A stretch of DNA of 64,000 nt from Candidatus Gastranaerophilales bacterium (lineage in GTDB: Bacteria > Cyanobacteriota > Vampirovibrionia > Gastranaerophilales > Gastranaerophilaceae): assembly GCA_017560095.1 (NCBI GenBank), contig JAFYOU010000006.1:26476-90475 (forward strand), given 5' to 3'. The notes under the pieces were generated by a model, which was not told where the DNA came from, did not search any database, and saw only the letters and a program-made list of their open reading frames with translations. Made by a program: the position numbers and the translations under genes. Positions 1,249 to 17,236 of this stretch are shown here, in pieces. Position 1 is the first letter of the stretch. Every line of letters begins with the position of its first letter.

Positions 1249-1319
1249 GGCTATTCCTTTAGTTTATAAACTCATTATATAACATTATTTTTAGTATGGG
1301 TACAGCAAATTCAAATTCT

Positions 1320-1339: not shown

Positions 1340-1528
1340 AAAATAAATTACGATAAGATTAAATTATGCATAAATTATTTTTATACATATTTCTATTGAC
1401 TAATTTAAGCAGAAAGATTTTATAAAAAAAATAATTTTAAAATCTTAAATCGTATCAAAAAATAAAACCAATAAATAAAAACTAAAAACATAATTATACT
1501 GTTTTTAATTTAATTACAATGTATTCTT

Positions 1529-2488: not shown

Positions 2489-2509
2489 ATCTTCTGTCCT
2501 TTTGATTTT

Positions 2510-2538
2510 AATTTAGCATTCAAATACGACAGAAATGG
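2510..2538 (-). promoter_or_regulatory. Island promoter motif, site 1
   Basis: On the minus strand this reads CC-ATTTC-TG, then 14 nt that include CGTATT, then TAAATT. It lies directly upstream of the 319-aa gene. It is one of seven copies of CC-N5-TG-N14-TAAAAT-like in this block. Confidence 0.55.
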
Positions 2539-2554
2539 TATGATAATTCCAAAT

Positions 2555-3139: not shown

Positions 3140-3191
3140 TCTTTACTCCTTAAATAACAACAAATATATATTACCCACTTCCCAAACCTGT

Positions 3192-3647: not shown

Positions 3648-3669
3648 TATTCCTTTTGATTTTAATTAA

Positions 3670-3698
3670 ATCTTAGCTTATAAATCTGACAACAATGG
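3670..3698 (-). promoter_or_regulatory. Island promoter motif, site 2
   Basis: On the minus strand: CC-ATTGT-TG, 14 nt, TAAGAT. Upstream of the 151-aa gene. It sits back to back with site 3 (3724-3752), so the 3647-3780 gap is a divergent promoter region. Confidence 0.55.
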
Positions 3699-3723
3699 AC
3701 GTAGATAATTTTTAATTATGCCA

Positions 3724-3752
3724 CCGAATTTGACACGTATGAATTTTAAAAT
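3724..3752 (+). promoter_or_regulatory. Island promoter motif, site 3
   Basis: CC-GAATT-TG, 14 nt including ACACGTAT, then TAAAAT (3747-3752), 28 nt before the ATG of the 203-aa gene. TTGACACGTAT is shared with site 7 in front of the mini-FtsZ gene. Confidence 0.55.
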
Positions 3753-3779
3753 GGATTTATAACTTAAAGGAGATTAAAA

Positions 3780-4391
3780 ATGGACGATTTTCAAAAAAGT
3801 GTTTTTATAGAATATTATTTCAATTCTATTGATTTTATAGTAAGTGAAACAAGAGTTGATTTGATTATAGATATGTTTGATTCAATAGTTCAAGAGTTCG
3901 ATTTAGAAAAAGAAACAAAAGAATTTAAAGAAACAAATTTCAATCCTTACAAAAATATTGAAGATAGGAAAATTGAATTAACAAAAGAGTTTTTTAAACA
4001 AGAATTAACTAAAATCAAAAAGACTTTAAAACCAAAACAAGCACAAAGCTATAAAGCATTATCAAAAATCAAAAAAGAAAATTGGCTTAATAATGACCAA
4101 TTCAAAGTTTTGACTTATTTTGATTTTGCCGCTAAAAACTACGCATTTTTAAAATTAATTCAAGCAATAGATAACCCTATAAGGCAAGAGTTTTGTTTTA
4201 TGCCAATGTTATTAAAAATGAAGAGTGAAAAAGTAATTAAAAGCTTTGATAAAATTTTTAGAAAAAAATTAATTCAAATAAAACCCCATGGTTCATCAAA
4301 CTATATCGCATATTTTACTCCATTTGATAAATCAACAAAAGCTTATGAGGGTTTTGAAAATATTGCATATAAGTATAAGCAGGCAGTATAA
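3780..4391 (+). CDS. Uncharacterised protein, 203 aa, upstream of WYL regulator
   Basis: I do not recognise the family. The protein is helical and strongly charged, with a lysine/glutamate-rich central stretch (about residues 45-100) that could be coiled coil, and a more hydrophobic C-terminal third. There are no membrane segments. AAAGGAG lies 7 nt before the ATG. It ends 13 nt before the WYL regulator start and is surely co-transcribed with it. The promoter has the island motif. The pairing suggests a regulator-plus-effector cassette, but the sequence shows no enzymatic motif. Confidence 0.6.
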   Translation: MDDFQKSVFIEYYFNSIDFIVSETRVDLIIDMFDSIVQEFDLEKETKEFKETNFNPYKNIEDRKIELTKEFFKQELTKIKKTLKPKQAQSYKALSKIKKENWLNNDQFKVLTYFDFAAKNYAFLKLIQAIDNPIRQEFCFMPMLLKMKSEKVIKSFDKIFRKKLIQIKPHGSSNYIAYFTPFDKSTKAYEGFENIAYKYKQAV

Positions 4392-4404
4392 TAATGGAGG
4401 AGTT

Positions 4405-5385
4405 ATGGAGCAAAATATGGAAGAAAAACCTCGCTATTCAAGAATAACAGATATTATTGATTTAATTATTCTTATGCAATCAAGATTTAATGGAATAACT
4501 TTGGCTGATATTCAAGAAAAATTCAATGTTTCAAGAAGAACAGCAGAGCGAATGAGAGATAGCTTGATGAATATTCTACCTTCTGTTCAAGAACTAGAAA
4601 CGGACGGCAGAATTAAGCGTTGGGGTTTTGTTAACTACTCAATGTGCGAAGTTATTAATTTTGCAAATAATGAAATCGCAATTTTAGAAAAAATTAAAAA
4701 TAAAGCAGATGTTGTAACCCAAGCTGATTTAGCCAAAATAATTGATAAAATTAAGGCTTTACAAACAAGAAAAAATAATATTGATATTGAAAAAGAGGTT
4801 GAATATTTAATGCATTTTGAAGGAAGTGCTGTTAAACAATCTCCAAAGTATAAGCTAAATCTTGATAATGTTCAAAAAATTAGAAGTGCAATTAAAGAAC
4901 ATTTGAAATTAAAAGCAAAATACAACGATAAAGAAAAACTGCTTTTACCATTAGGATTAATTTTTTCAAACAAAGTTTATCTAGTAGCAATTGAGGAAAA
5001 CAAAGGCGATAGTCCATATCATTATTTACTTCATAAATTCAGTGATGTTGAAGTTATATCTGAAAAATTTGAAAAAGAAGATTTTGATTTGCAAAATTTT
5101 GCTAATCAATCTTTTGGAATTTATCAAGGTGAAAGCTATAGTGTTAAGCTTGAATTTGATAAATCTTGCGCTCATGATGTTTTGAATTTTAACTTCCACC
5201 CAACTCAAAAAATTAAAGAACAAAAAAATGGTAATGTTTTAGTTGAATTTAAAGCAAGTGGCGAAAGAGAGATTTTATGGCATATTTTCACTTGGGGAGA
5301 TAAAGTTAAAATTCTTGAACCTAAAGCTTTGAAGCTAAAGTATGTTGAGATGATGGAAAATTGCATTAAAGTACAAAATTCTTAA
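4405..5385 (+). CDS. WYL-domain transcriptional regulator
   Basis: A 326-aa regulator. The N-terminal winged helix (about residues 10-75) contains GITLADIQEKFNVSRRTAER, typical of HTH domains in DeoR/WYL regulators. The central and C-terminal parts match a WYL domain with its C-terminal extension (KYNDKEKLLLPLGLIF, then YLVAIEEN). WYL proteins bind nucleic-acid or nucleotide ligands and often control defence genes. An in-frame ATG exists at 4288 inside the upstream gene, but ATG 4405 has GGAGG at 6 nt and the family-like start MEQNMEEKPRYSR. The HTH is closely related to the HTH-only protein at 7835-8098. It lies between an unknown gene and the AAA ATPase gene, which it may regulate. Confidence 0.88.
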   Translation: MEQNMEEKPRYSRITDIIDLIILMQSRFNGITLADIQEKFNVSRRTAERMRDSLMNILPSVQELETDGRIKRWGFVNYSMCEVINFANNEIAILEKIKNKADVVTQADLAKIIDKIKALQTRKNNIDIEKEVEYLMHFEGSAVKQSPKYKLNLDNVQKIRSAIKEHLKLKAKYNDKEKLLLPLGLIFSNKVYLVAIEENKGDSPYHYLLHKFSDVEVISEKFEKEDFDLQNFANQSFGIYQGESYSVKLEFDKSCAHDVLNFNFHPTQKIKEQKNGNVLVEFKASGEREILWHIFTWGDKVKILEPKALKLKYVEMMENCIKVQNS

Positions 5386-5402
5386 TATTTTTTCTTATGT
5401 CA

Positions 5403-5431
5403 CCTTGTCTGGCGTATTAAATTATTAAAAT
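5403..5431 (+). promoter_or_regulatory. Island promoter motif, site 4
   Basis: CC-TTGTC-TG, 14 nt including GCGTATT, then TAAAAT (5426-5431), 24 nt before the AAA-ATPase start. The AAA gene therefore has its own promoter, separate from the WYL gene. Confidence 0.55.
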
Positions 5432-5455
5432 AAATTTAAGACGAAAGGGAAGGTT

Positions 5456-6226
5456 ATGAAAAGTTTTGAAAAAAGAATGCTAGTTGAATATCTAGATAAA
5501 CATATTGAAAATATTGATTTTGATTCTAATAACATTGATGACTTAATTTCAAGTATTATTTCAGATTTAAAAATTAAAAAAACAAAATTTAAGTTAAGTG
5601 AAAAAGGAGACTTATTACTCAATACCTCAAGCGAATGCCATGATTTTAGAGTGCAACTCCATTGTGAAATTACAAAATTAAAGAAAAAATCTAAAAATAA
5701 GATAACTCCTTTTGAAGAAAAACTTAATGTAATCAAAAAAATTTATGCCCTAGAAGAACAAGATTATTTAATATTAATTTTTTATGTTTTAAAAGAATTA
5801 AGCACAACAATTCATCTTCTTTCAGAATGTTTATCTAGAGATTTTTTATCGTTTTATTTTAATTGCAGATATGGTTATAGAAGCCGTGATTTTGAACGCA
5901 ACTTACAAAATTATGGAATTTTATTTTATGAAGGCTGTGAATACCAGCTCAATAAAAACATTTTAGACATTTTAACTTCATCAAGTTTTAATAATGAAGA
6001 TAAAATTATAACAAAATTATTAGGCAAAAAAATAAAAAGTAAACTTAAACCTAAGGATTTCACTCATTTATCTCAAGAATTAAATAAAGCCACCAAGCTT
6101 TTAGAATCAGCTACTAAGTCAAAACAAAAAGGGGTAAATATATTTCTTTATGGAGATGTTGGTTGCGGCAAAACTGAATTTGCAAAATTAATTGCAAATA
6201 GCGCAAAACAAATATGCACGAAGTAA
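5456..6226 (+). CDS. Tandem AAA ATPase, N-terminal part (frameshifted)
   Basis: 256 residues. The first ~215 form an unrecognised helical N-terminal region. The end is the start of an AAA module with Walker A GDVGCGKTEFAK (about residues 233-244), after which the frame stops at 6224-6226. The missing Walker B and sensor parts continue in the -1 frame (6214-7437). One extra A in the AAAACAAAT run near 6206-6212 would restore a single frame reading AKQNMHEVITE and give a protein of about 660 aa. The start ATG 5456 follows GGGAAGG. This is probably one gene disabled by a one-base deletion or a sequencing error; no canonical slippery heptamer is present in frame. Confidence 0.7.
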   Translation: MKSFEKRMLVEYLDKHIENIDFDSNNIDDLISSIISDLKIKKTKFKLSEKGDLLLNTSSECHDFRVQLHCEITKLKKKSKNKITPFEEKLNVIKKIYALEEQDYLILIFYVLKELSTTIHLLSECLSRDFLSFYFNCRYGYRSRDFERNLQNYGILFYEGCEYQLNKNILDILTSSSFNNEDKIITKLLGKKIKSKLKPKDFTHLSQELNKATKLLESATKSKQKGVNIFLYGDVGCGKTEFAKLIANSAKQICTK

Positions 6227-7437
6227 TTACAGAAACAAAAGATTTTTGTGAAGCCAAAAGAAAAGATAGATTAAATAGCTTGCGCTCATTACAAAAAATC
6301 TTATCTAACACAAGCAATTCCTGTATATTATTTGATGAAGCACAAGATGTTATGAATACTGGTTTTTCAATATTTGGTGATGCATCAAAAAGCTTTTTAA
6401 ATAAAACTTTAGAAGAAAGCCCCGTTCCAATCATTTGGACAACAAATGATATTTATGAAGTTGACCCTGCATTTTTAAGAAGAATGACTTATGCAATTGA
6501 ATTTAAAAAGCCAAACGATAAGATAAGATTAAATATTTGGAAGCAAATCTTAAAAGAAAACAAATTTGAAATAAGCGATAAGAAATTAATCAAGCTAAGT
6601 CAGGATTATGAAATAGCTCCCGCATTAATTGAAAATGCCATTAAGTCAACTAAGATAATCAACGGAACAGAAGATGATTTTGAAGATTTTATTAAAAATG
6701 TTGAAAAAATTGTCTCTAAGAAAAAAAGAGTCAAAAAAGAAAACCCCCAAAAATTAGATAGCTACGATATTAATTGCGTTAACGCTGATATAGATATTTT
6801 GGATTTAACAGAAAAAATCAAAGAGTCAGGTAATTTAAATTTTTCTCTATGCCTTTATGGCGAACCAGGGACAGGTAAAAGCCAATACGCAAGATATCTA
6901 GCAGATTATCTTGGAATTGATGTTGTATTCAAAAGAGCTAGTGATATAAAAAGCAAGTGGGTTGGTGAAACCGAAAGAAATATAGCGAGTGCTTTTGAAG
7001 AAGCAAGAGATAAAAAAGCAATGCTAATTTTTGATGAAGCAGATAGCTTTTTGCAAAACCGAAATAATGCAAGAGCAAGTTGGGAAGTTTCGCAAGTGAA
7101 TGAGATGTTAACTTGGATGGAATCGCATCCGTATCCTTTTATTTGCACAACAAACTTGATGAATTCAATAGACGAAGCAAGCTTAAGACGCTTCACTTTT
7201 AAAATTAGATTTGACTTTTTAAATAAAGAGCAAGCAAATTTAATGATGGAAAACTTTTTTGATATTGAAACAGACTTTGACCTTCAAGGCTTGACCCCAG
7301 GGGATTTTGCAACTGTTAAAAAGAAAGTTGATTTTTTAAAGATTAATTCCGAAAAAGAAATCATAAAAATGTTGCAAGATGAAGTTAAGGTTAAAAAATC
7401 AGATGCACTAAAAAAAGTTGTTGGCTTTAATAACTAA
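6214..7437 (+). CDS. Tandem AAA ATPase, C-terminal part (two AAA modules)
   Basis: 407 residues in the -1 frame relative to the preceding ORF. It begins inside the first AAA module: Walker B CILFDEAQD (about residues 37-45), sensor-1 IIWTTND, then FLRRMTYAIEF. A second, complete AAA module follows: Walker A GEPGTGKS (about 215-222), the pore-loop-like KSKWVGETERN, Walker B MLIFDEADS, sensor CTTNL and SLRRFTFKIRF. The overall type is a CDC48/SpoVK-like tandem AAA protein. The ATG at 6214 has no Shine-Dalgarno and starts in mid-domain, so independent translation is unlikely. Substrate unknown. The neighbouring WYL regulator suggests an inducible, possibly defensive, role. Confidence 0.75.
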   Translation: MHEVITETKDFCEAKRKDRLNSLRSLQKILSNTSNSCILFDEAQDVMNTGFSIFGDASKSFLNKTLEESPVPIIWTTNDIYEVDPAFLRRMTYAIEFKKPNDKIRLNIWKQILKENKFEISDKKLIKLSQDYEIAPALIENAIKSTKIINGTEDDFEDFIKNVEKIVSKKKRVKKENPQKLDSYDINCVNADIDILDLTEKIKESGNLNFSLCLYGEPGTGKSQYARYLADYLGIDVVFKRASDIKSKWVGETERNIASAFEEARDKKAMLIFDEADSFLQNRNNARASWEVSQVNEMLTWMESHPYPFICTTNLMNSIDEASLRRFTFKIRFDFLNKEQANLMMENFFDIETDFDLQGLTPGDFATVKKKVDFLKINSEKEIIKMLQDEVKVKKSDALKKVVGFNN

Positions 7438-7475
7438 AAAAGCAAACATGCCAGATAAAACATTAAATAGACTTA

Positions 7476-7700
7476 CTATTTTGAAATAAATTGAATATCA
7501 AAGTCTAAAACTTCAGCTATTCTTTTAACCTCAAAAAAGCGCAAAAAACCACGAGATAGCTTATTGGAAAGATTATTTTTGCTTTCTTTAGCATCAAATT
7601 TTTCGTTTAGTTCTTGTGCTAATTTTTCTAATGTATAGCCACGTTTTGCCATAAGAGATTTAATATCTCTTTTCAACTCCATAATTTCATCATTTTTCAT
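7476..7700 (-). CDS. Small HTH protein (DUF6471/XRE-like)
   Basis: 74 aa. GYTLEKLAQELNEKFDAKES followed by NLSNKLSRGFLRFFEVKRIAEVL is a helix-turn-helix of the small DUF6471/XRE-like type, with the family's NKLSRG turn. It probably binds DNA as a dimer. It is divergent from the 87-aa HTH protein at 7835; the shared gap carries two palindromes (7737-7750, 7809-7824) that are good candidates for its operators. DNA-binding fold likely; target is inference. Confidence 0.7.
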   Translation of the reverse strand: MKNDEIMELKRDIKSLMAKRGYTLEKLAQELNEKFDAKESKNNLSNKLSRGFLRFFEVKRIAEVLDFDIQFISK

Positions 7701-7736
7701 AAGATTATTTTTGCATATTTTTCATCAATACACAAT

Positions 7737-7750
7737 ACACTATAAAGTGT
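7737..7750. promoter_or_regulatory. Palindromic operator candidate O1
   Basis: ACACT-N4-AGTGT, a perfect 5-bp inverted repeat, 37 nt upstream of the minus-strand HTH start. Same half-sites and same spacer as O2. A lone half-site TACACT follows near 7788. Confidence 0.55.
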
Positions 7751-7808
7751 GCAAAACATATAAAATAATGAACAAATGTAAAAAATATACACTATTTTTG
7801 ATATTAAG

Positions 7809-7824
7809 TACACTATTTAGTGTA
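7809..7824. promoter_or_regulatory. Palindromic operator candidate O2
   Basis: TACACT-N4-AGTGTA, a perfect 6-bp inverted repeat, which overlaps the TATAAA -10-like box (7823-7828) of the 87-aa HTH gene. A protein bound here would block that promoter, so repression of 7835-8098 is the natural reading. Confidence 0.6.
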
Positions 7825-7834
7825 TAAATAAAAT

Positions 7835-8098
7835 ATGAATAAATTTGCCGATAAACCCCGCTATTCCAGAGTTAGTGACGCAATTGAATTAATGATTTGG
7901 ATGTTGGAAACTCCTCAAGGAATTACATTAAAACAAATTCAAGAAAGATTTAATGTTTCAAGAAGAACTGCCGAACGCTTAAGAAATAGCCTATTAAATG
8001 CCTTGCCACAGATAGATGAGCTAAATTATTTTCAATCTAATGAAAAACATTGGGGCTTTGTTGATTATTCCATTCCTCAATTAGTTGTGAATAAATAA
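7835..8098 (+). CDS. HTH-only paralogue of the WYL regulator
   Basis: 87 aa, matching the N-terminal winged helix of the WYL regulator at 4405 almost from end to end (KPRYSR, GITLKQIQERFNVSRRTAER, HWGFVDYS), but it stops where the WYL domain should begin. The ending is a clean TAA without visible WYL remnants downstream, since the integrase gene occupies the opposite strand. It may act as a competitor for the WYL regulator's sites or as a dimer partner. TATAAA lies exactly 6 nt before the ATG and there is no Shine-Dalgarno, so a leaderless mRNA is likely. It is probably repressed through O2. Confidence 0.7.
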   Translation: MNKFADKPRYSRVSDAIELMIWMLETPQGITLKQIQERFNVSRRTAERLRNSLLNALPQIDELNYFQSNEKHWGFVDYSIPQLVVNK

Positions 8099-8647
8099 TC
8101 AAAGTTCAAAATTAGAATAAGATAGCTCGATTTCTTCTTGCGAAATACCAATATATCGCAAAGTAATGCTTGGACTGGAATGATTTAAAATATTTTGCAA
8201 AAGAGCTACATCATTAAACTTTTTATAATGATGATAGCCAAAAGTTTTTCTCATTGTATGCGTTCCAATTGCCCCAACATTAATCTTTGTTTTTTTAATT
8301 GCATCATTAATAAAGCGATAGACAATACTTCTATGCAATCTTGAACCTTTATCCCCTAAAAACAATGGGCGATTTAATTCTTTAGCTTCTTTTAAATACT
8401 CTTCAATTAATTGCTTAAGCTTATTGTTTAATGGAAATTTTTTGTATTTTTTAGTCTTCTTTTCTCTAATCACAACATGGGTTTTATTTTTAACATCACC
8501 CACATTTAAACCCAAAATATCAGAAACTCGAAGCCCAGTGTTAATTCCAAAAGCAAAAATCAACCTATCCCTTTTAGATGTGTTCTCAAGATATTTTTCA
8601 ACAAGCTCAATATCTTCCTTTTTTCGTATCGGTTCAACATAGTTCAT
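8099..8647 (-). CDS. Minimal tyrosine recombinase/integrase
   Basis: 182 aa, the catalytic domain of the phage-integrase family. Arg I is in GINTGLRVSDI (about residues 32-42), a lysine-rich beta hairpin follows (REKKTKKYKKFPL), the box II pattern is HTMRKTFGYHH, the next conserved His is in LNHSS, and the nucleophile is Tyr in LRYIGIS. The N-terminal core-binding (SAM-like) domain of ordinary integrases is almost absent: only ~25 residues precede the catalytic domain. It could be a small invertase/integrase or a truncated but complete-looking catalytic remnant. AAGGAG precedes the ATG. It sits in mid-block, not next to a tRNA. Confidence 0.85.
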   Translation of the reverse strand: MNYVEPIRKKEDIELVEKYLENTSKRDRLIFAFGINTGLRVSDILGLNVGDVKNKTHVVIREKKTKKYKKFPLNNKLKQLIEEYLKEAKELNRPLFLGDKGSRLHRSIVYRFINDAIKKTKINVGAIGTHTMRKTFGYHHYKKFNDVALLQNILNHSSPSITLRYIGISQEEIELSYSNFEL

Positions 8648-8788
8648 AATTTTCTCCTTTTTATTTAATTAAAAAAGGTTGAAAATTTCTGAAACACAAT
8701 AAATATAAAGGCGCTAGCCTTGTTGTGCTATTCTTTTGACACAATTTTATCAAATTTAAAAAGCTTTCAAATCCACTATTCATTTGAA

Positions 8789-8816
8789 CAACTCCATATT
8801 ATTTAATATAGAGTTG
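8789..8816. promoter_or_regulatory. Inverted repeat just before the methylase start
   Basis: CAACTC-C-ATAT then TATTTA then ATAT-A-GAGTTG gives an 11-bp stem with one mismatch, ending 3 nt before ATG 8820. As DNA it could be an operator; as RNA it would occlude the start codon. Either would fit delayed or autoregulated methylase expression in a restriction-modification system. Confidence 0.5.
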
Positions 8817-8819
8817 AAA

Positions 8820-10124
8820 ATGGGTAATAAAAATTTAAAAGAAGCAAAAGAGGCAAAAAATGATGAATTTTATACAGAACTTTCTGAAATTCAAGCAGAA
8901 ATGAATAATTATACTGATAAATTTAAAAATAAAGTTGTTTATTGCAATTGTGATGACCCTTTTGAAAGCAATTTTGTAAAATATTTTCTTATGAACTTCA
9001 ATAGATTAGGGTTAAAAGAGCTTATCGCAACAGGATATAAAACAAGCCCATTTAGAGGAACAGAACTCAATATCATGGATGCAGCATATTCTATTCGTAT
9101 TACTAACACAAAAAAATATCTCGTTGGAACTCAATCAGACCTTGATATAAAAGGTGTAATGTATTTTTTAACGACTGAAAAAGATAAAATTACATCAAAA
9201 CTTATTGGAAATTACGCACTAGATGAAAACAAGAATAAAATTCAAATAGCTGTAAAAGAAACATATACTAATAATGGTAAAGAAAAAAAACGAACAGTTA
9301 AACAAGATTTGTATTATGAAGCAGGAGACTTTAGAAGCGATATGAGTATTGCACTCTTAAAGCAATCCGATATTGTTGTAACAAATCCGCCTTTTTCTTT
9401 ATTTAGAGAATATTTTAACCAACTAATGTCATATAAAAAACAATTTATTATATTAGGCAATATAAGTGTTGTTACAAATATAGAGTTTTTCCCTTTTATT
9501 AAGAATAATATGGTATGGGCAGGATGCGTTAGTGGTAGCAAAAAATATAGAGTGCCGGAAAATTATGCAGCTGAAAATCCTAATAAAGTTTATGTTGAAA
9601 ATGGCAAAAAATATGCAAAATTTGGAAATACAATGTGGTTTACAAATATAGACCATGCCAAAAGGCATCAATTTTTGCCATTAAATCTTGGGTATAAGTA
9701 TCATGGCCATGAGAAAATGTATCCAAAATATGATAATTATGATGCCATAGAAGTTGAAGAAATATCAAAAATACCTTATGATTACACAGGTGTAATGGGT
9801 GTTCCAAATTCATTTATTCACAAATACTGCCCTGAGCAATTTGATATTATTGGCATACCAACAGCAGCGTCAAATGAAGGCTCTTTGAATCTTAACAAGG
9901 ACTATAAAACTTACATAGGATATAAGCAAGATGGTACTAGGACAGGTCGTACAGGAAGCACTTTCGGTGCCTGCCCTGTATTTGAACGAAACGACCACAA
10001 AAACATATATTATACAAATGGCAAAAGAACGGTGCAAGCAGGAAAATGTATGCGCATTTTTATAAAATTTAAAAAAGCATATATTTCGCAACATCCTGAA
10101 TTATTTGGAAATACGGAGGAATAA
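8820..10124 (+). CDS. EcoRI-type adenine-specific DNA methyltransferase
   Basis: 434 aa of the EcoRI methylase family (N6-adenine). Seen here: DDPFESNFVKYFLMNFNRLG near the N-terminus, the catalytic motif NPPF in SDIVVTNPPFSLF (about residue 190), the SAM-family strand FIILGNISVVTNIEF, and MWFTNIDHAKRH. The length is near the family norm. The ORF can be extended to a TTG at 8784, but ATG 8820 is preferred because the TTG lies inside the inverted repeat. The gene ends 2 nt before the DUF262/HNH nuclease, which makes a tight restriction-modification operon. Recognition sequence cannot be read from the sequence. Confidence 0.9.
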   Translation: MGNKNLKEAKEAKNDEFYTELSEIQAEMNNYTDKFKNKVVYCNCDDPFESNFVKYFLMNFNRLGLKELIATGYKTSPFRGTELNIMDAAYSIRITNTKKYLVGTQSDLDIKGVMYFLTTEKDKITSKLIGNYALDENKNKIQIAVKETYTNNGKEKKRTVKQDLYYEAGDFRSDMSIALLKQSDIVVTNPPFSLFREYFNQLMSYKKQFIILGNISVVTNIEFFPFIKNNMVWAGCVSGSKKYRVPENYAAENPNKVYVENGKKYAKFGNTMWFTNIDHAKRHQFLPLNLGYKYHGHEKMYPKYDNYDAIEVEEISKIPYDYTGVMGVPNSFIHKYCPEQFDIIGIPTAASNEGSLNLNKDYKTYIGYKQDGTRTGRTGSTFGACPVFERNDHKNIYYTNGKRTVQAGKCMRIFIKFKKAYISQHPELFGNTEE

Positions 10125-10126
10125 AT

Positions 10127-11464
10127 ATGATTAAGATAGTTGACTATGGAAAAATAAAAGTAAGTGATTTAATTGAAGGCTTTATGGAAGATAACACAAC
10201 AGGAGAAGTGACTTCCATGAATGGCAGACTTAATATCAGACCTGCATATCAAAGAGAATTTGTTTGGGATAAAGGTGCAGACAATGGCGGCAAAAAGCAA
10301 ATTGATTTAATTGATTCTATCTTGAATGGTTTTCCAATAAATGTAATGTATTTTGTTAAAACAGGTGTAAATCAAGACGGTGAAGACATGTACGAGGTTC
10401 TCGATGGGCAACAACGTATTATAACAATGTGCCATTTTAGAGAAAACCGATTTGGGTTATCCGATGGAACTCAATATGATGGACTTACCGATAATGCCAA
10501 ATTTAACAATTTCAATACTTTTACTGTTTATATATGTGAGGCAGATACTCTTGATGAAAAATTAGATTGGTTCCAACGAGTAAATACAGCAGGCGAACCT
10601 CTGTCAAAGCAAGAAATGCGTTCAGCTATTGCTTGCGGAGAAGGCACTACTCGTGCTAAAAAATATTTTGTTAACACAAGAGAAACTAATGGGACAAATG
10701 CTTATTCATACGATATTCAATCAGGCAGACCAGCAAAAGATTATATAAAAAAAGCATGGGACAGACAGGATGCATATGAACAAGTGATAACCTGGTTCAT
10801 TAACAGCAAAAAAGATGATGACATCCTTTCATTTATGAAAAACAATCGTAATAATGTGACAAAAGCAGATGAAATGTTTGAATATTATAAAAATGTTATA
10901 AAATGGATAAAGAGATTATTTCCTACTTATAACTCTGACATGAAAGGAGTTGATTGGGGATTTCTCTATAATAAATACCATAACAATATGACAATGACTT
11001 CAAAAATTCTCGAAGAACAGATTAAATATCTTCGTCAAGATGTTGGTAATGGGGATAATGACCACTTAAAAACAACTAAAGGTATATATGAATACGTGCT
11101 TGCAATTGCAAACGGTGAAAATCCAAATGATGCCATCAAATATCTTGAACCACGGGTTTTTAGCGATAAAGACAAAAAGGCTCAATATGAACGACAACGA
11201 CATGTTTGTCCACATTGCATGAAAAGATTTGAAGATGTTTCTTGGATGGTAGGAGACCATATCATACCGTATAATCCAATCCCTTCTGCTGGTCAAGAAA
11301 ATGGCAAAACTACACCTGAAAATCTTCAAATGCTCTGTTATAGTTGCAATTTAAATAAAAGCAATCATCCATTTGATAAAAAAGCAGAAGAAAAACGACT
11401 TCAAGATTTATACAATATGTCAGATGAAGAAATTGCCAACTTGCCAGAAGGTAATGTTTCATAA
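10127..11464 (+). CDS. DUF262/HNH restriction endonuclease
   Basis: 445 aa. The N-terminal DUF262 (GmrS/ParB-like NTPase-nuclease) domain shows RPAYQREFVWD (about residues 38-48) and the signature LDGQQRI (about 92-98). The C-terminus is an HNH nuclease with zinc cysteines CPHC and CYSC and the active-site region VGDHIIPYNP...PENLQMLCYSCN...H. DUF262-HNH proteins are known restriction enzymes of modification-linked and modification-dependent types. The gene starts 2 nt after the methylase with GGAGG, so it is likely the cognate nuclease. Both Zn pairs and the HNH His are intact, so it appears functional. Confidence 0.88.
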   Translation: MIKIVDYGKIKVSDLIEGFMEDNTTGEVTSMNGRLNIRPAYQREFVWDKGADNGGKKQIDLIDSILNGFPINVMYFVKTGVNQDGEDMYEVLDGQQRIITMCHFRENRFGLSDGTQYDGLTDNAKFNNFNTFTVYICEADTLDEKLDWFQRVNTAGEPLSKQEMRSAIACGEGTTRAKKYFVNTRETNGTNAYSYDIQSGRPAKDYIKKAWDRQDAYEQVITWFINSKKDDDILSFMKNNRNNVTKADEMFEYYKNVIKWIKRLFPTYNSDMKGVDWGFLYNKYHNNMTMTSKILEEQIKYLRQDVGNGDNDHLKTTKGIYEYVLAIANGENPNDAIKYLEPRVFSDKDKKAQYERQRHVCPHCMKRFEDVSWMVGDHIIPYNPIPSAGQENGKTTPENLQMLCYSCNLNKSNHPFDKKAEEKRLQDLYNMSDEEIANLPEGNVS

Positions 11465-11466
11465 AG

Positions 11467-11490
11467 ACTTTTTAGTTTATTCTAAAAAGT
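11467..11490 (+). terminator. Hairpin after the restriction gene
   Basis: ACTTTTTAG (11467-11475), TTTATT loop, CTAAAAAGT (11482-11490): a 9-bp perfect stem 3 nt after the stop codon. No long T tract follows, so it may be a weak or bidirectional terminator. Confidence 0.5.
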
Positions 11491-11564
11491 TGAGTAAATA
11501 TTATAATATTTAAAGCAATATTTTTCAAATTTTACCCAAACAAATCCAATCTTCATCAAGACAC

Positions 11565-11591
11565 CCCCTACTTATTTGCGGAGGGGTTTTT
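11565..11591 (+). terminator. Weak rho-independent terminator
   Basis: CCCCT (11565-11569) pairs with AGGGG (11582-11586), followed by TTTTT. This is the only G+C-rich stem in the gap. Confidence 0.4.
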
Positions 11592-11670
11592 GATTAATGA
11601 AGGCGAAATTTATTCAAGAATTTAAAAAAGGTAATTTTTTGTTGCAATTTTTTGAAATACCCTCTGTTCA

Positions 11671-11694
11671 TTTGCGATAGCACAAAATCGCAAA
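11671..11694. repeat. 8-bp inverted repeat
   Basis: TTTGCGAT (11671-11678) and ATCGCAAA (11687-11694) flank an 8-nt spacer. It lies in the non-coding gap between the restriction gene and the first FtsZ-like gene, next to the direct repeats at 11736-11877, and could be a protein-binding site. Confidence 0.45.
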
Positions 11695-11735
11695 CTGGCA
11701 CCATGTTTTTTCTTATATAGTATATCTATACCTAA

Positions 11736-11877
11736 CTGTTAAAATATGTATATTTTAAGGTATATTTTTCATATAAATATGCTTAAAATTTAAGGCAATT
11801 TTACTATCTGTTAAAATGTGGAATAAAAATAACATACCCTTTGTTAAAATGCGATTTTAATTTCTGCTAAAATGCGG
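11736..11877 (+). repeat. Four iteron-like direct repeats upstream of FtsZ-like cluster
   Basis: The core CTGTTAAAATGTGGA-like recurs at 11736-11748, 11808-11822, 11841-11854 and 11864-11877 (the last as CTGCTAAAATGCGGA). All are in the same orientation with uneven spacing of about 72, 32 and 24 nt. They end ~60 nt before the first FtsZ-like gene. They could be operator copies or a partition/replication-type iteron array. Confidence 0.5.
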
Positions 11878-11899
11878 AAAATAATTTTTCAATATACGT

Positions 11900-11928
11900 C
11901 CAAGATTGGTGTATTAATAATTTAAACT
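11900..11928 (+). promoter_or_regulatory. Island promoter motif, site 5
   Basis: CC-AAGAT-TG, 14 nt including GTGTATT, then TAAACT (11923-11928), exactly 6 nt before ATG 11935. This combines the island promoter with a predicted leaderless start. Confidence 0.6.
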
Positions 11929-11934
11929 AAAAAT

Positions 11935-12426
11935 ATGAATAATTTAAAACCATTTTGTATAATTTCAATTGATGGAAGACTTAACAAATTTAGCAAAAAT
12001 TTTCCTAAGCTAAATTCTTGTGTTTGTTTTTCAATTGATTCACATGAAAATTTTAATGAAACAGAATTAAAAGAAAAAACAAAAGATTACCACAACATTA
12101 TTATTGTTTGTGGACTAGCAGGAGAAAGCGCAGGTAGAATTCTTTTGAATATCCTTGATATTTTAAAAGATAAAAATTGCCTTGTTGTTGCAAATACTCC
12201 TTTTGATTTTGAAGGTAAAAAGAGAAGAAAAATAGCAAATGAGATATTAGAAATCCTTGAAATTAAAAACATAAACAAGCTTATCTTCTATTCAAGAAGC
12301 TTTTTTAAAAAATGGAAAGAAGAAGATTTGGATGGCTTTAAAAATATCTATAGCTTTGTTGATGTGCAACTTGTTGAAACGATTAACAAGGTAATTGAGG
12401 CGAATAGTTATAAATACCGAAAATAG
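11935..12426 (+). CDS. Degenerate mini-FtsZ-like protein A
   Basis: 163 aa. The stretch IIIVCGLAGESAGRILLNIL then LVVANTPFDFEGKKRRKIAN (about residues 86-105) aligns with FtsZ from the end of strand S4 through the T5/H6 region, where FtsZ has GGGTGTG...VTKPFxFEGxxR. The tubulin signature loop is replaced by GLAGESAG, so GTP binding is doubtful. The N-terminal third lacks the first phosphate loop, and the C-terminal FtsZ domain and T7 loop are missing. The fold relationship is inferred from the well-kept PFDFEGKKRRK block. Promoter: island site 5, no Shine-Dalgarno. Convergent with protein B. Confidence 0.65.
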   Translation: MNNLKPFCIISIDGRLNKFSKNFPKLNSCVCFSIDSHENFNETELKEKTKDYHNIIIVCGLAGESAGRILLNILDILKDKNCLVVANTPFDFEGKKRRKIANEILEILEIKNINKLIFYSRSFFKKWKEEDLDGFKNIYSFVDVQLVETINKVIEANSYKYRK

Positions 12427-12496
12427 TTATTCTCAAATATTTGAAACAGAGGGCGATATTGCAAAAGCAAGATTTCAAGAGATATTTAAGGGGGTG

Positions 12497-12515
12497 GTTT
12501 AAAAATATTTTAAAC
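12497..12515. terminator. Hairpin between convergent FtsZ-like genes
   Basis: GTTTAAAA (12497-12504), ATA, TTTTAAAC (12508-12515): a perfect 8-bp stem in the gap between the ends of the 11935 (+) and 12534 (-) genes. It may serve both directions but has low G+C and modest strength. Confidence 0.4.
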
Positions 12516-12533
12516 AAATTAAAATCCGACATA

Positions 12534-13001
12534 TTACATTTTAGTCGTTTCATTAATTATATACATAAATTCGTCCCTACAAGCTTCAACAGCTTGTGCA
12601 AAAATAGCTCCTTTACCAAGCTTATTTACAATGGCATCATTTTTTATAATTTCAACATTAGCTCGTTCGGTTAATAAATACTCCAATGTTTCAAGTGCAT
12701 TATTTCTCTTTCTTTGTCCTTCAAATTTAAAAGGAATATTTGTTACGATAACGCACTCTTTATTAATCAAATGCAAAGCATACTTTAAAAAAATAGATGC
12801 TTTTCTTGAACCCGCTTCTAAAGCAAAAACGATTTTTTCATACGTATTTGTTTTTATCAAAAATTCATCATCTGAAATGCTAGAACTTACATCTATTTCT
12901 ATACAATCATAGTCCTTATTGTCAGAAATATTAAGTTTAATGCTGTCTTCAAAATCTTTAATTAATACAACACAATAAGTTTTTTGTGCTAATTTTGTCA
13001 T
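12534..13001 (-). CDS. Degenerate mini-FtsZ-like protein B
   Basis: 155 aa. KIVFALEAGSRKASIFLKYA then VIVTNIPFKFEGQRKRNNAL (about residues 85-104) corresponds to the same S4-to-H6 part of FtsZ as in protein A; the PF-x-FEG-x-R block is kept. The GTP signature is gone (LEAGSRKAS in its place). Like A, it lacks the FtsZ C-terminal half. GAGGT precedes the ATG. Its promoter (13045-13073) is back to back with that of the GTPase-like protein C, so B and C are expressed from one divergent region. Function unknown; a regulator or binding partner of an FtsZ is plausible. Confidence 0.65.
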   Translation of the reverse strand: MTKLAQKTYCVVLIKDFEDSIKLNISDNKDYDCIEIDVSSSISDDEFLIKTNTYEKIVFALEAGSRKASIFLKYALHLINKECVIVTNIPFKFEGQRKRNNALETLEYLLTERANVEIIKNDAIVNKLGKGAIFAQAVEACRDEFMYIINETTKM

Positions 13002-13044
13002 AATTTTACCTCTCTAACTAGTTTTTGCGAATTTGCATATTTTC

Positions 13045-13073
13045 ATTTTATTTCATTAATACGCCAAAAACGG
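13045..13073 (-). promoter_or_regulatory. Island promoter motif, site 6
   Basis: On the minus strand: CC-GTTTT-TG, 14 nt including GCGTATT, then TAAAAT. Drives protein B. Together with site 7 it makes a large inverted arrangement with CCCGTTT boxes at both ends (13068-13074 and 13100-13106). Confidence 0.6.
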
Positions 13074-13100
13074 GCGAATAAAAAATATTTAATAATGCAC

Positions 13101-13129
13101 CCGTTTCTGACACGTATAAAGCTTATGAT
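13101..13129 (+). promoter_or_regulatory. Island promoter motif, site 7
   Basis: CC-GTTTC-TG, 14 nt including ACACGTAT, then TATGAT (13124-13129). Drives protein C. Confidence 0.55.
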
Positions 13130-13160
13130 AAAAATATCGAGATTATATTAAAGGTGAACT

Positions 13161-13784
13161 ATGATAAAAAAGAAATTAAATTTCCAAGATAAATACACGC
13201 TTGTTAAAATTACAGTTGCAGGTATTGGTGTTGGCGCTCAAAATGTTGTTGATTACTTATCATTAAATAATCAATCTGAAAACATAAGTTTCGCTGTTAT
13301 TAACTCAGATAAAAATATTTTAGAAACTGCAAAAACCAAAAATAAATTGTTAATACATGGCAAAGAAAAAACTTTTTACGGCTTAGGTTGTGGCGGAAAT
13401 GTTCCTGTTGGAAAACAATATGCAGAGTTTTGCATTAATGAAATTGAAAATTTATTCAATGATACTGATGTTGCAATTCTTGTTTCTTGCTTTGGTGGAG
13501 GTTGTGGAACTGGCGCAACACCTGTTATTGCGCAAATGCTAAAAAATAAAGGCATTAAAACAATTGCAATAGTTTCTAAACCTTTTGATTATGAAGGCGA
13601 GCGCAGAAAAGAATGTACGGCATTGGGAATAGAAAAAATAAAAAATTTTGTAGATAAATTAATTCTTGTTGATAACCAAGATTTCATGACTACTCTTCCA
13701 GAAGACATAACATTAAAAGAAGGTTGGAATTATGCAAATAAAAAAATAGCAGAACTTTTTGAGAAAGAAATTGCTGAATTCTAA
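13161..13784 (+). CDS. Mini-FtsZ-like GTPase-domain protein C
   Basis: 207 aa, clearly homologous to the N-terminal GTPase domain of FtsZ. VKITVAGIGVGAQNVVDYL matches the first nucleotide loop, FAVINSDKNIL the T3 region, FGGGCGTGATPVIA (about residues 114-127) the tubulin signature GGGTGTG with one Cys, and SKPFDYEGERRKE the T5/H6 block. The protein ends within or just after helix H7 (WNYANKKIAELFEKEI). It therefore lacks the T7 loop that triggers GTP hydrolysis in the next subunit, and the whole C-terminal domain (normal FtsZ is about 350-400 aa). It could bind GTP and cap a host FtsZ filament but not propagate it. AAGGTGA precedes the ATG. Confidence 0.85.
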   Translation: MIKKKLNFQDKYTLVKITVAGIGVGAQNVVDYLSLNNQSENISFAVINSDKNILETAKTKNKLLIHGKEKTFYGLGCGGNVPVGKQYAEFCINEIENLFNDTDVAILVSCFGGGCGTGATPVIAQMLKNKGIKTIAIVSKPFDYEGERRKECTALGIEKIKNFVDKLILVDNQDFMTTLPEDITLKEGWNYANKKIAELFEKEIAEF

Positions 13785-13839
13785 ATATCAAAAATTGTGA
13801 TGTTGAAGATATTAAATAGAAATGACAAAACTCATCAAC

Positions 13840-14532
13840 CTATAATTTTTCAAATGAAACGTTTTCCAATTTTGGGTTTTTACAAAATTCATTAACATAT
13901 TTTGCACACCTAGGGCTTGGATGAGTTGGTTGGCCTGTTTTTTTATTTATTCTATATGCAAAAAATTTAATATCTTTATTTTTTTTATCATCAATTGCGG
14001 TTTTAATTGCATTAAAATATTCTTCTTCAAGTTTATTCTTAGGGTCATTACCCCAAGCAATTATAACTTTTGAGATATTTTTTTTCGATAACTCATCAGC
14101 TAACTTAAAAATTGGATTACTAAGTTTTTCATATTCGAGTTTAATCAACTTAATAGCTTCTTGAATTTTAGGATGTCTTGTTGTAAATGTGTTATATATA
14201 ACCATTCCGCCGATTTTTTCTTCTTGCTCTTTATTTAACGCATAGCAAATTTTTACACAATTTTTTAAAGTACCATCCAATTCCTTAGAATTTGCATGGC
14301 TTGGATTAAAAAGAATAAAAGCTATTTTTTCCTTTTCCTTATCCCAAATTACTTCATAACTCAATCTATTTTTTGGGCATCTTTCTTTGTTATTTTCTGA
14401 TACACACAATTTGTCATAATATTGAAAATTTTCAAATTCATAGTCATCATCACCAAATATAGGGGTTTTTATTGCATTTTCATTAACATGTTTTACAAAA
14501 TCTTCAGTGCTTAAATTATATAATTCCTTCAT
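13840..14532 (-). CDS. DUF1643-family protein, second copy
   Basis: 230 aa. IAFILFNPSHANSKELDGTL (about residues 72-91), NTFTTRHPK, VIIAWGNDPKNKLEEEYF and the C-terminal THPSPRCAKYV are the conserved DUF1643 landmarks, in the same order as in the 2555-3139 protein but with an N-terminal extension of ~70 residues carrying cysteines. It is a diverged relative, not a recent duplicate. It converges on mini-FtsZ C with a 55-nt gap. Role unknown. Confidence 0.75.
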   Translation of the reverse strand: MKELYNLSTEDFVKHVNENAIKTPIFGDDDYEFENFQYYDKLCVSENNKERCPKNRLSYEVIWDKEKEKIAFILFNPSHANSKELDGTLKNCVKICYALNKEQEEKIGGMVIYNTFTTRHPKIQEAIKLIKLEYEKLSNPIFKLADELSKKNISKVIIAWGNDPKNKLEEEYFNAIKTAIDDKKNKDIKFFAYRINKKTGQPTHPSPRCAKYVNEFCKNPKLENVSFEKL

Positions 14533-15273
14533 GACAAAATTAACCTTTCAAAACCTATCTAAATTAACACATAATTAGCTCCCAAATTTCAACTTATCTA
14601 TCAAAAATTTATCGTATATAGGCATAAACCTGCATTTATCTTGTTAAAAACTCAACTGAAACATCATCAAAAAAACTGTGCACTTTTGTAGAGAATCTGG
14701 CAATTCAATAGCGAATGTAATTGAAAGTCAATTGGCGAGAATGTTTGATTTGTTTGGATTTGAGGCTAACTTCCGTCAGTACCATAGCAACTTTTTTAGA
14801 TTTGCCACTTTTGCCGAATTTTTGCCAAAATTTTTGCCGTTTTTTCACTTATCCTTGTTGTGTTTTAGTGATTTTTGGTGTGTGTTTTGAATTTTCAAGA
14901 TTGCAAAAATATGCAAAAAATGTAATCCAAATGTAATTCAAATGTAATTGAAGAAAATTTACTTCCACAAGTCGGAAATGCTTTTAAAGCAATACTTTTA
15001 GCTTTTAAAAACATAATTTTTCAATTACATTCCTACATTCTTTTTATGTAATCGAAGCACAATGTAATTGAAGATTGTTCAATTATATAAATGGGGGGGA
15101 TTAAAACATTGCTATTATTTACTTTAAGATAGTTTTTAATAATTACATAAAGTTTTGACAATTCAACAAAATACATAAAAATGTATTTTTCAATTGTAAA
15201 ATTTATGTAACATTGCAAAAATAAACATCAAAAAAACAATTTTTAATGTTTTATTATAATGCAAGGAGTCAGC
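14533..15273. other. 740-nt non-coding gap with AATGTAATTGAA-type repeats
   Basis: I see no convincing gene. Short plus-strand frames at 14678-14936 are Phe/Cys-rich translations without start signals. The gap is instead rich in copies of AATGTAATTGAA in both orientations (near 14703, 14929, 14940, 15022 reversed, 15060) and a variant near 15046. The stretch 14700-14890 is less A+T-rich than its surroundings and may be remains of a lost gene. Confidence 0.5.
14918..14950 (+). repeat. Three tandem 11-bp repeats
   Basis: AAATGTAATCC, AAATGTAATTC and AAATGTAATTG follow one another without gaps (14918-14928, 14929-14939, 14940-14950). The 11-bp period places the sites close to one face of the helix, as for cooperative binding of a protein. 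Confidence 0.6.
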
Positions 15274-16695
15274 ATGGATATTACAAAATTATCATCAGCA
15301 AATCAAACTATATTAACAAATAAACAAAAAACCGAAGAAAACATTCAAGCCTCGCCGGAACAAAAGAAAAACGGCAAAAAGTTATTAGCGCTTAGTGTTG
15401 CTACAATTGCAACGGTTGTTGTTGCAACTCTTGCAATTAAGAAAAAAAGCACAAAAACCCTTAGCGATATCGATTTTAACAAAGGTATTGCAACTTTAAA
15501 GAAAAATGGCAAAAATTTCTCAGGCAAAATCAAAACAAAACTTCCAAATGGCGATAAAGTAACAATGAATTATGCTGATGGTATTCTGCAAAGTTCAATA
15601 AGAATAGGTTCAGAAAACACATCAAAAACTTTTTCAACTAACGAAAAAGGTGAAAAAATTGTTGAAATAATTAAAAACAGAAAAAGTGAAACAAAAAACA
15701 TTTCAGTTATCAGTGAACTTGTTAAAAAAGAACAAAACGAATTAAAAGAATTGCTAAGCAACAATAAAAAATTATCTTTTGAAGAATTTAAAAACAAAAC
15801 AGAACAATTTAAATACGTTAACAAAAACCAAAAAAATGAAATTGCAAATATTTTAAAACAAAAGCTAGATTATGAAGCTTCAATTAAAGCAGAGGCTTTA
15901 AAAAGAATCAGTGACGAAAAAAACACGCAAAAAATTGCAAATTATAATCAGCTTTTAATTAGTAAATCAATTAATAATAATCTATCTAATAAATCAGCGC
16001 AAGAAAGTGCTTCAATTATTGAAGAATTAAAACAACAAGAATTTAAGGCTGAAATTTCCGCAGAAGCACAACAAAGAATTGCACAACAAAATGCAATCAA
16101 ACTTGCGCAAGAAAAAGAAAATAAATATTTTGAATCATTAAAAACTCCATCAAAATTCGCACAGGAATCAGCTTTGACTATCGATGAATTAAAAAAACAA
16201 GAAGCACAATCATTATACAATAAACCCTTTAAAGAAATGCTCTCGAATAAAAACGCGCAAGAAAGTGCTCAAGTTTTTATTGTAGAAGAATTTAAAAACA
16301 AAGGACATATTTCAATTTCGGAACTAGAAAAAATTAAACATATACTTGAAGATGACGATGACATAGAAGAAATACAAGATTTTGCACTTCAAATAGCAAA
16401 TTCAAGAAGACTAAATGCGTTTAACCCTGCATACTACGGCTTTAGCACAGAAGGTAAGTTGCATGAGTTTCCGGACGGAACAAGTGCAATAGTACACGAA
16501 GGCCCAGGACTACTTGACGTAACATCAGATGGTAGATTATTAATAAAAGTATATGCCGATTGGTATCTTGAGTTGATAACAAAAGAGCAACCTGAGTCTA
16601 AAGATATAAAAAACGCGTGTAATATTGCAACAAATTATGGATATAACCAACATAGAACCGCTCAAAGTCAGGGCATACAAATGGTATATGCATAA
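15274..16695 (+). CDS. Orphan membrane-anchored repeat protein
   Basis: 473 aa, family not recognised. After ~40 polar residues there is one membrane helix (KLLALSVATIATVVVATLAI) followed by lysines. Residues ~75-150 form a beta-rich domain with KLPNGDKVTMNYADGILQ, resembling MORN/toxin-type repeat strands. The central part is a charged helical region with three related segments, SNKSAQESASIIEELKQQE, FAQESALTIDELKKQE and SNKNAQESAQVFIVEEFKN. The C-terminus is a small folded region (DGTSAIVHEGPGLLDV). ATG 15274 has AAGGAG at 7 nt; the in-frame ATG 15259 lies before it. It probably faces the periplasm or cell surface. It may be the first gene outside the accessory block. Confidence 0.6.
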   Translation: MDITKLSSANQTILTNKQKTEENIQASPEQKKNGKKLLALSVATIATVVVATLAIKKKSTKTLSDIDFNKGIATLKKNGKNFSGKIKTKLPNGDKVTMNYADGILQSSIRIGSENTSKTFSTNEKGEKIVEIIKNRKSETKNISVISELVKKEQNELKELLSNNKKLSFEEFKNKTEQFKYVNKNQKNEIANILKQKLDYEASIKAEALKRISDEKNTQKIANYNQLLISKSINNNLSNKSAQESASIIEELKQQEFKAEISAEAQQRIAQQNAIKLAQEKENKYFESLKTPSKFAQESALTIDELKKQEAQSLYNKPFKEMLSNKNAQESAQVFIVEEFKNKGHISISELEKIKHILEDDDDIEEIQDFALQIANSRRLNAFNPAYYGFSTEGKLHEFPDGTSAIVHEGPGLLDVTSDGRLLIKVYADWYLELITKEQPESKDIKNACNIATNYGYNQHRTAQSQGIQMVYA

Positions 16696-17059
16696 AGTTT
16701 TATATCTCTTTAAAATTAATTCTTACTAAATATGTCGCAATAAAATCATAATCTAAATCAATTTCAATTGTTTTATAAGCACTATTTTTGAATAACTTTC
16801 TGCCGCTATATAATAAATTCCGTTTGTCATTTAATACAAACAGGCAATAAGAATGAGTAAAGCGGAACAGGATAATGAGAAATTTTCAAACCATGTAAAA
16901 TTAAGTCTAACGAATTTTGATTCTGTAAGATAAAAATTATTAAACCTTCTTATATAATATATAAATTCTTAACCATATTTTGTTAAGTTTTATACAGACT
17001 TAAACCCTTGCTATGAAACCATTTGAAACATTTTATCAAACTGCAAGTGCAGTTGTAAC
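16696..17059. other. Non-coding gap before tRNA-Ser
   Basis: Nothing well supported. A 26-codon frame (16853-16933, MSKAEQDNEKFSNHV...) has only a weak ribosome binding site. A possible promoter (TTGAAT 16788-16793, TATAAT 16809-16814, 15-bp spacer) lies before it. Confidence 0.3.
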
Positions 17060-17080
17060 TTTTGTGCACTTCGCACAAAA
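17060..17080. terminator. Terminator-like hairpin
   Basis: TTTTGTGC (17060-17067), ACTTC, GCACAAAA (17073-17080), then TTTT. A perfect 8-bp stem, usable in either direction. Confidence 0.5.
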
Positions 17081-17094
17081 TTTTGACATAAAAT

Positions 17095-17123
17095 AAGGGC
17101 TTCAAGAAAACCTTGAAACCCTT
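17095..17123 (-). terminator. tRNA-Ser terminator
   Basis: On the minus strand AAGGGTTTCAAG pairs with CTTGAAGCCCTT around a GTTTT loop: 12 bp with one G-U. It starts 11 nt past the tRNA 3' end and is followed by ATTTTAT. Confidence 0.65.
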
Positions 17124-17133
17124 GATAAACTTC

Positions 17134-17221
17134 GGAAAAAGAGGGATTCGAACCCTCGAGGCAGATTACTCCACCTAACACCTTAGCAGGGTGCCGCCTT
17201 CAGCCACTCGGCCATTTTTCC
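17134..17221 (-). tRNA. tRNA-Ser (anticodon GCU)
   Basis: 88 nt on the minus strand with a long variable arm typical of tRNA-Ser. The acceptor stem is GGAAAAA/TTTTTCC, the anticodon loop reads CTGCTAA with anticodon GCT, and the T arm contains GGTTCGAATCC. CCA is not encoded. Its 3' end faces the accessory block to the left, a common arrangement when an element integrates into a tRNA gene. Confidence 0.95.
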
Positions 17222-17236
17222 ATTCGCTATTTCTAA

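Follow-up and report, generated by a model that had tools for sequence, protein, structure and literature searches.

The 64-kilobase (kb) window examined here, the whole stretch of 64,000 nucleotides (nt) from contig JAFYOU010000006.1 of a Candidatus Gastranaerophilales bacterium, carries three neighbouring genes for short relatives of FtsZ, designated A, B and C. Almost certainly, all three belong to a family of single-domain FtsZs that comprise the guanosine triphosphatase (GTPase) domain and helix H7 and lack the T7 loop, the C-terminal domain and the tail. FtsZ relatives reduced in this way to the nucleotide-binding half, as read from their sequences, are what is new; no description of such a family was found in the literature searched, a scope from which subscription papers were mostly absent. 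The three genes were found where the initial annotation of this DNA had placed its open reading frames (ORFs), position 12534 being the low end of B on the minus strand, and their main features are as follows.

11935..12426, plus strand: protein A, 163 amino acids (aa), degenerate single-domain FtsZ relative
12199..12216, plus strand: PFDFEG block, A residues 89-94, from translation and position counts
12534..13001, minus strand: protein B, 155 aa, degenerate single-domain FtsZ relative
12717..12734, minus strand: PFKFEG block, B residues 90-95, from translation and position counts
13161..13784, plus strand: protein C, 207 aa, FtsZ GTPase domain and H7, with the guanosine triphosphate (GTP) signature intact
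13491..13517, plus strand: T4 tubulin signature FGGGCGTGA, C residues 111-119, from translation and motif test
13581..13598, plus strand: PFDYEG block, C residues 141-146, with Y144 aligned by model to S. aureus F138

Since B is encoded on the minus strand, pointing towards A and away from C, the genes probably form three transcription units.

Protein C is the clearest of the three. It matches the Pfam family PF00091 (E-value 9.3e-28, above the cut-off) and the NCBIfam ftsZ model TIGR00065 (E 3.7e-48, 164.6 bits), and the two marks from which an FtsZ GTPase domain had been proposed, FGGGCGTGATPV and PFDYEGERRKE, are both present exactly. Because the TIGR00065 match spans positions 12-197 of the 353 in the profile, C remains under the curated whole-protein cut-off of 295.2 bits; A (30.3 bits) and B (20.2 bits) also fall below it, and the full-length FtsZ of the same genome scores 429.6 bits. 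The tubulin signature of C, FGGGCGTG, is one letter away from the textbook GGGTG(S/T)G, its GTP signature counts as intact in the motif test, and the T1, T3, T4, T5 and T6 loops are present along with H7. In the predicted structure, H7 extends over residues 185-206, after which the chain ends; the last model residue, 207, is matched to FtsZ residue 201 of the B. subtilis and S. aureus entries, in agreement with the earlier statement that C stops at H7, while absence from the structure matches listed for this model excludes nothing. C shares 34% identity over 178 residues with the full-length FtsZ encoded in the same genome, whose T7 loop reads GLINVDFADV, and no T7 loop occurs in A, B or C.

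A frameshift or contig error hiding a full-length FtsZ, raised in the initial annotation as an objection, was rejected for A, B and C: a C-terminal-domain profile built from 40 host proteins found no match in the three forward frames of these genes or downstream of them. The genome has a stated contamination of 7.07%, yet the contig matches the sister genome G012 on both sides of the variable segment that carries the genes.

A and B are weaker yet real FtsZ relatives, as judged from profile comparisons. A has no tubulin match in Pfam, and the proposed hidden Markov model comparison with FtsZ gave E 2.6e-7 against TIGR00065, with A residues 42-155 on profile positions 92-204; B matches PF00091 at E 0.0047, below the cut-off, and TIGR00065 at E 3.1e-4. 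When compared with ten full-length FtsZs, a profile combining A with B and the G012 orthologue of A reached a probability of 95.4 (E 1.7e-8) over A residues 55-147, and B alone, in a profile-profile comparison, reached 91.1 (E 1.1e-6). In the alignment, T1 and T3 are lost in both proteins, T4 is corrupted (LAGESAG in A) and PF(D/K)FEG is kept; both fail the tubulin-signature test, which confirms the loss of the GTP signature originally noted for A and B. The orthologue of A in G012 is 71% identical, with a ratio of nonsynonymous to synonymous substitution rates (dN/dS) of 0.119 at a dS of 1.44.

Searches of the taxonomic family of the window genome, together with fetched loci, yielded 39 different short sequences, spread over at least 28 of 384 genomes, a lower bound taken from the matches listed. 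Their occurrence in that family is patchy, and the window genome also encodes a full-length FtsZ. C-terminal-domain sequence was detected in three of the 39, namely a 278-aa protein of G040, a 310-aa protein of G334 that passes the TIGR00065 cut-off with 303 bits, and a 251-aa ORF of G239, where this sequence continues in another frame as a real frameshift and was counted unmended; none was found in the other 36, for a few of which the downstream stretch searched was short (minimum 218 nt, G287). The stops inside the matches of G401, G363 and G223 are probably ORF ends, at 186, 182 and 190 aa. One G047 match, an acetyltransferase-like ORF by eye, and contig-end ORFs in L040, L057 and L071 were excluded, and the G394 sequence, whose N-terminus is unclear, was used neither for the tree nor for the position counts.

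The relatives foreseen in Melainabacteria do exist: of four named records with relatives of one short FtsZ, three are titled Candidatus Gastranaerophilales, which we take to belong to Melainabacteria, and one uncultured bacterium. The trio is not supported as a unit, as no other locus among the matches listed has all three; A has one clear orthologue among them (G012), the sole short FtsZ of its locus, and B has none as close as that of A. Members of the A and B type outside the taxonomic family could be missed by the class-wide search, whose cut-off of 1e-38 was strict; of the 22 genomes from other families of the order, G071 has a second match at 1e-7. A phage origin was considered and set aside: 20 of 50,697 phage records were matched, at 35.5% identity or less, 13 of them unannotated 'Bacteriophage sp.' entries from human faeces; 115 plasmid records were matched, all below 60% (20 listed), and five scans of viral contigs, suited to close relatives, returned no relative of the short FtsZs.

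When 38 short and 29 full-length sequences were placed in one tree, a single branch separated the two sets (support 98/99, and 98% of 200 bootstrap trees); the tree is unrooted, with very long branches and unsettled bootstrap values, and its hosts come from this class only, with 11 near-identical ones left out. An origin of the short sequences by truncation of the local host FtsZ is not supported, as this branch parts them from the host sequences. The short members nearest the hosts are those with C-terminal-domain sequence and a 219-aa protein of G291, while the inner order of the short sequences is unsure because the branches are long. In all 12 pairs compared, dN/dS lay between 0.12 and 0.35, indicating purifying selection, for close pairs only, which B and C lack.

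Among the 38 short sequences, in the numbering of the window's own host FtsZ, P146 and E150 of the PFxFEG strip are kept in all 38, F147 in 35, an aromatic residue at 149 in 34, G151 in 34 and R154 in 32. T4 is often altered, and the T7 columns are gapped in 35 of 38; the three sequences that retain them have Glu in place of the Asp at host position 221, presumably the catalytic residue. In the model, C Y144 aligns with the residue of the 5mn5 chain that is F138 if its numbering begins at 12, which places the strip on the top face. In S. aureus, F138 is described as part of the longitudinal interface, and with F138A filaments went undetected in the absence of a stabilising drug (PMC5414002).

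Single members occupy 22 of 30 loci and several members the remaining 8, of which G239 has two competent ones. A competent and a degenerate member occur together in seven of the eight multi-copy loci (permutation P 0.03), which is only a hint because G056, G213 and G340 are closely related. The competent and degenerate genes of G040 and G116 overlap by 8 nt. The G040 tandem (L036:5319-6744) encodes a 198-aa protein with a GTP site and no T7, followed by the 278-aa protein with a degenerate GTP site, T7 and the C-terminal domain, and by sequence this pair resembles a split FtsZ. In G287 (L130:216-1064), the short FtsZ runs in frame, right after PYDFEG, into WG repeats, and both parts of the ORF exceed their Pfam cut-offs (tubulin E 7.2e-11; WG repeat, WG_beta_rep, E 2e-18); this join is either a natural fusion or a deletion.

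The initial annotation had placed the genes on an accessory block, and they do lie on a variable segment bordered by tRNA-Ser. Against the sister genome G012, the only one with which the segment was compared in full, homology is lost at C57:21740 and picks up again at C57:43606 (window position 17131), at the end of tRNA-Ser(gct). In the window genome, this 21.9-kb segment contains A, B and C, a methyltransferase, a restriction enzyme, an integrase domain, two proteins of the DUF1643 cluster, a WYL regulator and a split AAA+ gene. The G012 equivalent measures 4.3 kb and encodes an HSDR_N/N6-methylase protein as well as one whose TaqI_C specificity match stays below threshold; its A orthologue lies about 4.7 kb before the left segment border. 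The features of the segment in the window are listed below.

1..17130, no strand: portion of the variable segment covered by the window (C57:21741-43605 in full, 21.9 kb)
2555..3139, minus strand: second protein of the DUF1643 neighbour cluster, by blast cluster
4288..5385, plus strand: HTH-WYL-WCX regulator, 365-aa ORF, recurrent neighbour family (16 of 26 loci)
5456..7437, plus strand: double AAA+ ATPase in two overlapping frames (5456-6226 and 6214-7437), the second part with IetA as best PADLOC match
8099..8647, minus strand: tyrosine integrase catalytic domain, 182 aa, PF00589 E 2.6e-27
8784..10124, plus strand: EcoRI-type adenine methyltransferase, PF13651 E 9.1e-107, PADLOC MTase_II
10127..11464, plus strand: GmrSD-N/HNH restriction enzyme, the gene upstream of A, PF03235 and PF01844, PADLOC REase_II E 4.9e-68
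11736..11876, plus strand: direct repeats YTGYTAAAATRYG upstream of A, starting at 11736, 11808, 11841 and 11864, by sequence search of the 64-kb window
13840..14532, minus strand: DUF1643 protein adjoining C, recurrent neighbour family (11 of 26 loci against 0 of 20 controls)
17132..17222, minus strand: tRNA-Ser(gct), right border of the segment, conserved in G012

For the HTH-WYL-WCX regulator, the Pfam and PADLOC searches covered 4405-5382; WCX and HTH_11 lie above the Pfam cut-off and WYL below it. A second WYL regulator is represented by an 87-aa N-terminal fragment at 7835-8098. Among relatives of the split double AAA+ gene, five are single ORFs of 658-684 aa, and that of G399 is split too. 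The four YTGYTAAAATRYG copies fall within 141 bp, with no further copy across the window and none in L037, the locus of the G012 A orthologue; they are possible regulator sites. A promoter scan returned 26 sites where 20.2 were expected, nothing usable, and an Rfam scan of window positions 1-20000 had the tRNA as its sole match.

Neighbouring genes were compared between 26 loci (23 genomes, 34 short ORFs) and 20 control regions from nine of those genomes. The controls, of 15 kb each, were chosen positions rather than a random draw, and the loci (20 kb for the window, 3.7 to 20 kb for the others) are not independent; clustering of the loci at E 1e-4 by single linkage, looser than the 1e-5 used to match controls, slightly favours the loci. 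On this basis, WYL genes recur at 16 loci against 0 controls, DUF1643 at 11 against 0, UvrD-PD-(D/E)XK at 10 against 0, and RtcB and serine recombinases each at 7 against 0, with weaker contrasts for WG-repeat genes (10 against 1), double AAA+ (9 against 1), tyrosine integrases (4 against 0, P 0.09) and HD genes (2 against 0, P 0.31). The commonest same-strand neighbours within 150 nt are WYL and DUF2924 genes, with six cases each, and in the window no WYL gene adjoins A, B or C.

A division brake is tentatively proposed, and we consider it possible, if somewhat short of probable, that competent short FtsZs cap or sequester host FtsZ and stall division, that degenerate ones modulate them and that WYL regulators act as the switch. 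Since the retained top face is what an FtsZ subunit offers to the T7/C-terminal face of its neighbour, the top (nucleotide) face of a C-type member could dock on the exposed T7/C-terminal bottom face of host FtsZ. Once docked, it would accept no further subunit and its own GTPase site would stay incomplete, so that FtsZ would be capped or sequestered and division would stall; from the geometry, blocking of filament ends is plausible. A and B, which keep the PFxFEG strip, might act as nucleotide-insensitive partners, competitors or regulators, and the set may be switched on by WYL regulators under DNA damage or invasion. SulA acts at the same bottom face of FtsZ, CbtA binds near H6-H7, and MciZ is described as binding H10 and strand 9 of the C-terminal domain and phage Gp0.4 as binding T7 and the C-terminal domain. 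The WYL regulators DriD and PafBC are described as responding to single-stranded DNA, and an SOS-independent checkpoint of Caulobacter as acting through the division inhibitor DidA. DriD drives didA, a precedent for a WYL regulator as the switch of a division brake. A more far-reaching version, in which detached FtsZ GTPase halves are natural dominant-negatives of an island brake switched by WYL, with GTP-competent halves capping the bottom face of FtsZ, tuned by GTP-dead halves and coupled to DNA-end-processing defence genes, is doubtful. Osawa and Erickson are said to have worked on FtsZ truncations. An abortive-infection module remains a suggestion of the initial annotation.

Several observations weigh against a division brake. 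Only 14 of 39 ORFs are GTP-competent by the strict motif test, in a set without G394 and with a G213 copy identical to that of G056. PFxFEG also contacts the nucleotide, so its conservation supports filament docking without proving it, and for A and B the docking argument is weak because T1 and T3, much of the top face, are lost. A profile of the degenerate members also matches KtrA and KtrC chains (E 7e-7 and 7e-4) at the N-terminus, and therefore this part of it lacks specificity for FtsZ. The recurrent neighbours are mostly genes for DNA processing or regulation or genes of unknown function, not division genes; the UvrD-PD-(D/E)XK gene occurs in 190 of 384 family genomes against at least 28 of 384 for short FtsZs, so the link is one-sided: the system is the more widespread of the two and has a short FtsZ with it only at times.

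The recurrence of defence-type neighbours favours the main rival of the division brake, a GTP switch independent of division, in which short FtsZs would pair with one another, competent with degenerate, as a sensor or scaffold in a defence-like module of WYL, UvrD-PD-(D/E)XK and AAA genes, with no action on host FtsZ. This rival is rather unlikely. The seven mixed multi-copy loci, the overlapping genes of G040 and G116 and the in-frame join to WG repeats in G287 point to it, whereas the pairing test is weak for the relatedness already given and for the two competent members of G239, single members prevail, and the neighbours vary widely. Short proteins bound by phage or toxin inhibitors instead of host FtsZ, or reporting such inhibitors, are an improbable explanation; it draws on the restriction-modification genes beside the trio on a variable segment and on a report that describes FtsZ inhibition as common among phages and CapRel as sensing an FtsZ-Gp0.4 complex (PMC13423816). 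Against it, Gp0.4 and MciZ target T7 and/or the C-terminal domain, which have no counterpart in the short FtsZs, and decoying would thus be limited to inhibitors directed at the N-terminal domain.

It is very improbable that the short subunits build a private TubZ/PhuZ-like mini-cytoskeleton of a mobile element: the intact GTP signatures and the loci with several members would suit it, but the T7 columns are missing in 35 of 38 and the C-terminal domain in 36 of 39, making canonical head-to-tail contact impossible for those members, and the three with T7 columns carry the Asp-to-Glu change. Decaying, functionless FtsZ truncations are an equally remote prospect, since the wide sequence spread, long branches, patchy occurrence and frameshifted G239 case that would fit decay are opposed by the low dN/dS of all 12 pairs, the invariance of P146 and E150 and the branch that splits the family from host FtsZs.

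Among known systems, FtsZ itself (TIGR00065, PF00091) shares the fold with the family and, in C-type members, the T1, T3, T4, T5 and T6 loops and H7; the short members differ in lacking the T7 loop, C-terminal domain, linker and C-terminal peptide, in the frequent loss of the GTP signature and in their patchy occurrence. TubZ/RepX and PhuZ, which are full-length filament formers, resemble them in a tubulin fold on mobile DNA, with weak profile matches to 4xcq, 3v3t, 4ei7 and 3zbp. The difference drawn from them in the initial annotation stands, as A, B and C are far shorter and the polymerising half is missing; against PHROG, C matched phrog_17961 at E 4.9e-6 and phrog_4733 at E 0.002, and its PhuZ match is partial (E 0.002). 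SulA, MciZ, Gp0.4 and the DriD-induced DidA would be analogous in an on-demand block of FtsZ or septation, with a WYL switch in DriD/DidA. To our knowledge, none of them is homologous to the short FtsZs; those inhibitors are unrelated to their target, whereas a short FtsZ is a piece of the target itself. FtsZl1, in the account of Makarova and Koonin (2010, PMC2875224), likewise has no recognisable canonical C-terminal domain and accompanies an ordinary FtsZ, but it is described with its own C-terminal region, no recognisable T6-H7 and mostly VWA genes, a description that sets it apart from C, which has T6 and H7 and ends there, in a comparison of features for which no FtsZl1 profile was searched. 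The same source states that, as of 2010, all characterised FtsZ-tubulin proteins formed filaments (PMC2875224), and a family kept by selection that retains just the nucleotide half would break that rule. The short FtsZs would offer natural, evolved truncated FtsZs for studying the control of filament ends, and, if they stall division on demand, variable defence-type islands would be tied to the cell cycle, in gut bacteria whose lineage is represented mainly by assembled genomes.

Two further observations concern the wider genomes. In many genomes of genus g8 (for example G035, G111 and G183), FtsZ is matched twice, each time in an open frame long enough for the whole protein. The fusion of a UvrD helicase and a PD-(D/E)XK nuclease, of about 1010-1030 aa (L116:13214-16300 in C57; L083:741-3770), is patchy and, in the loci studied, often lies near WYL, AAA+ and DUF1643 genes; its best PADLOC matches are GajB helicases, and the fusion may constitute a separate defence system.
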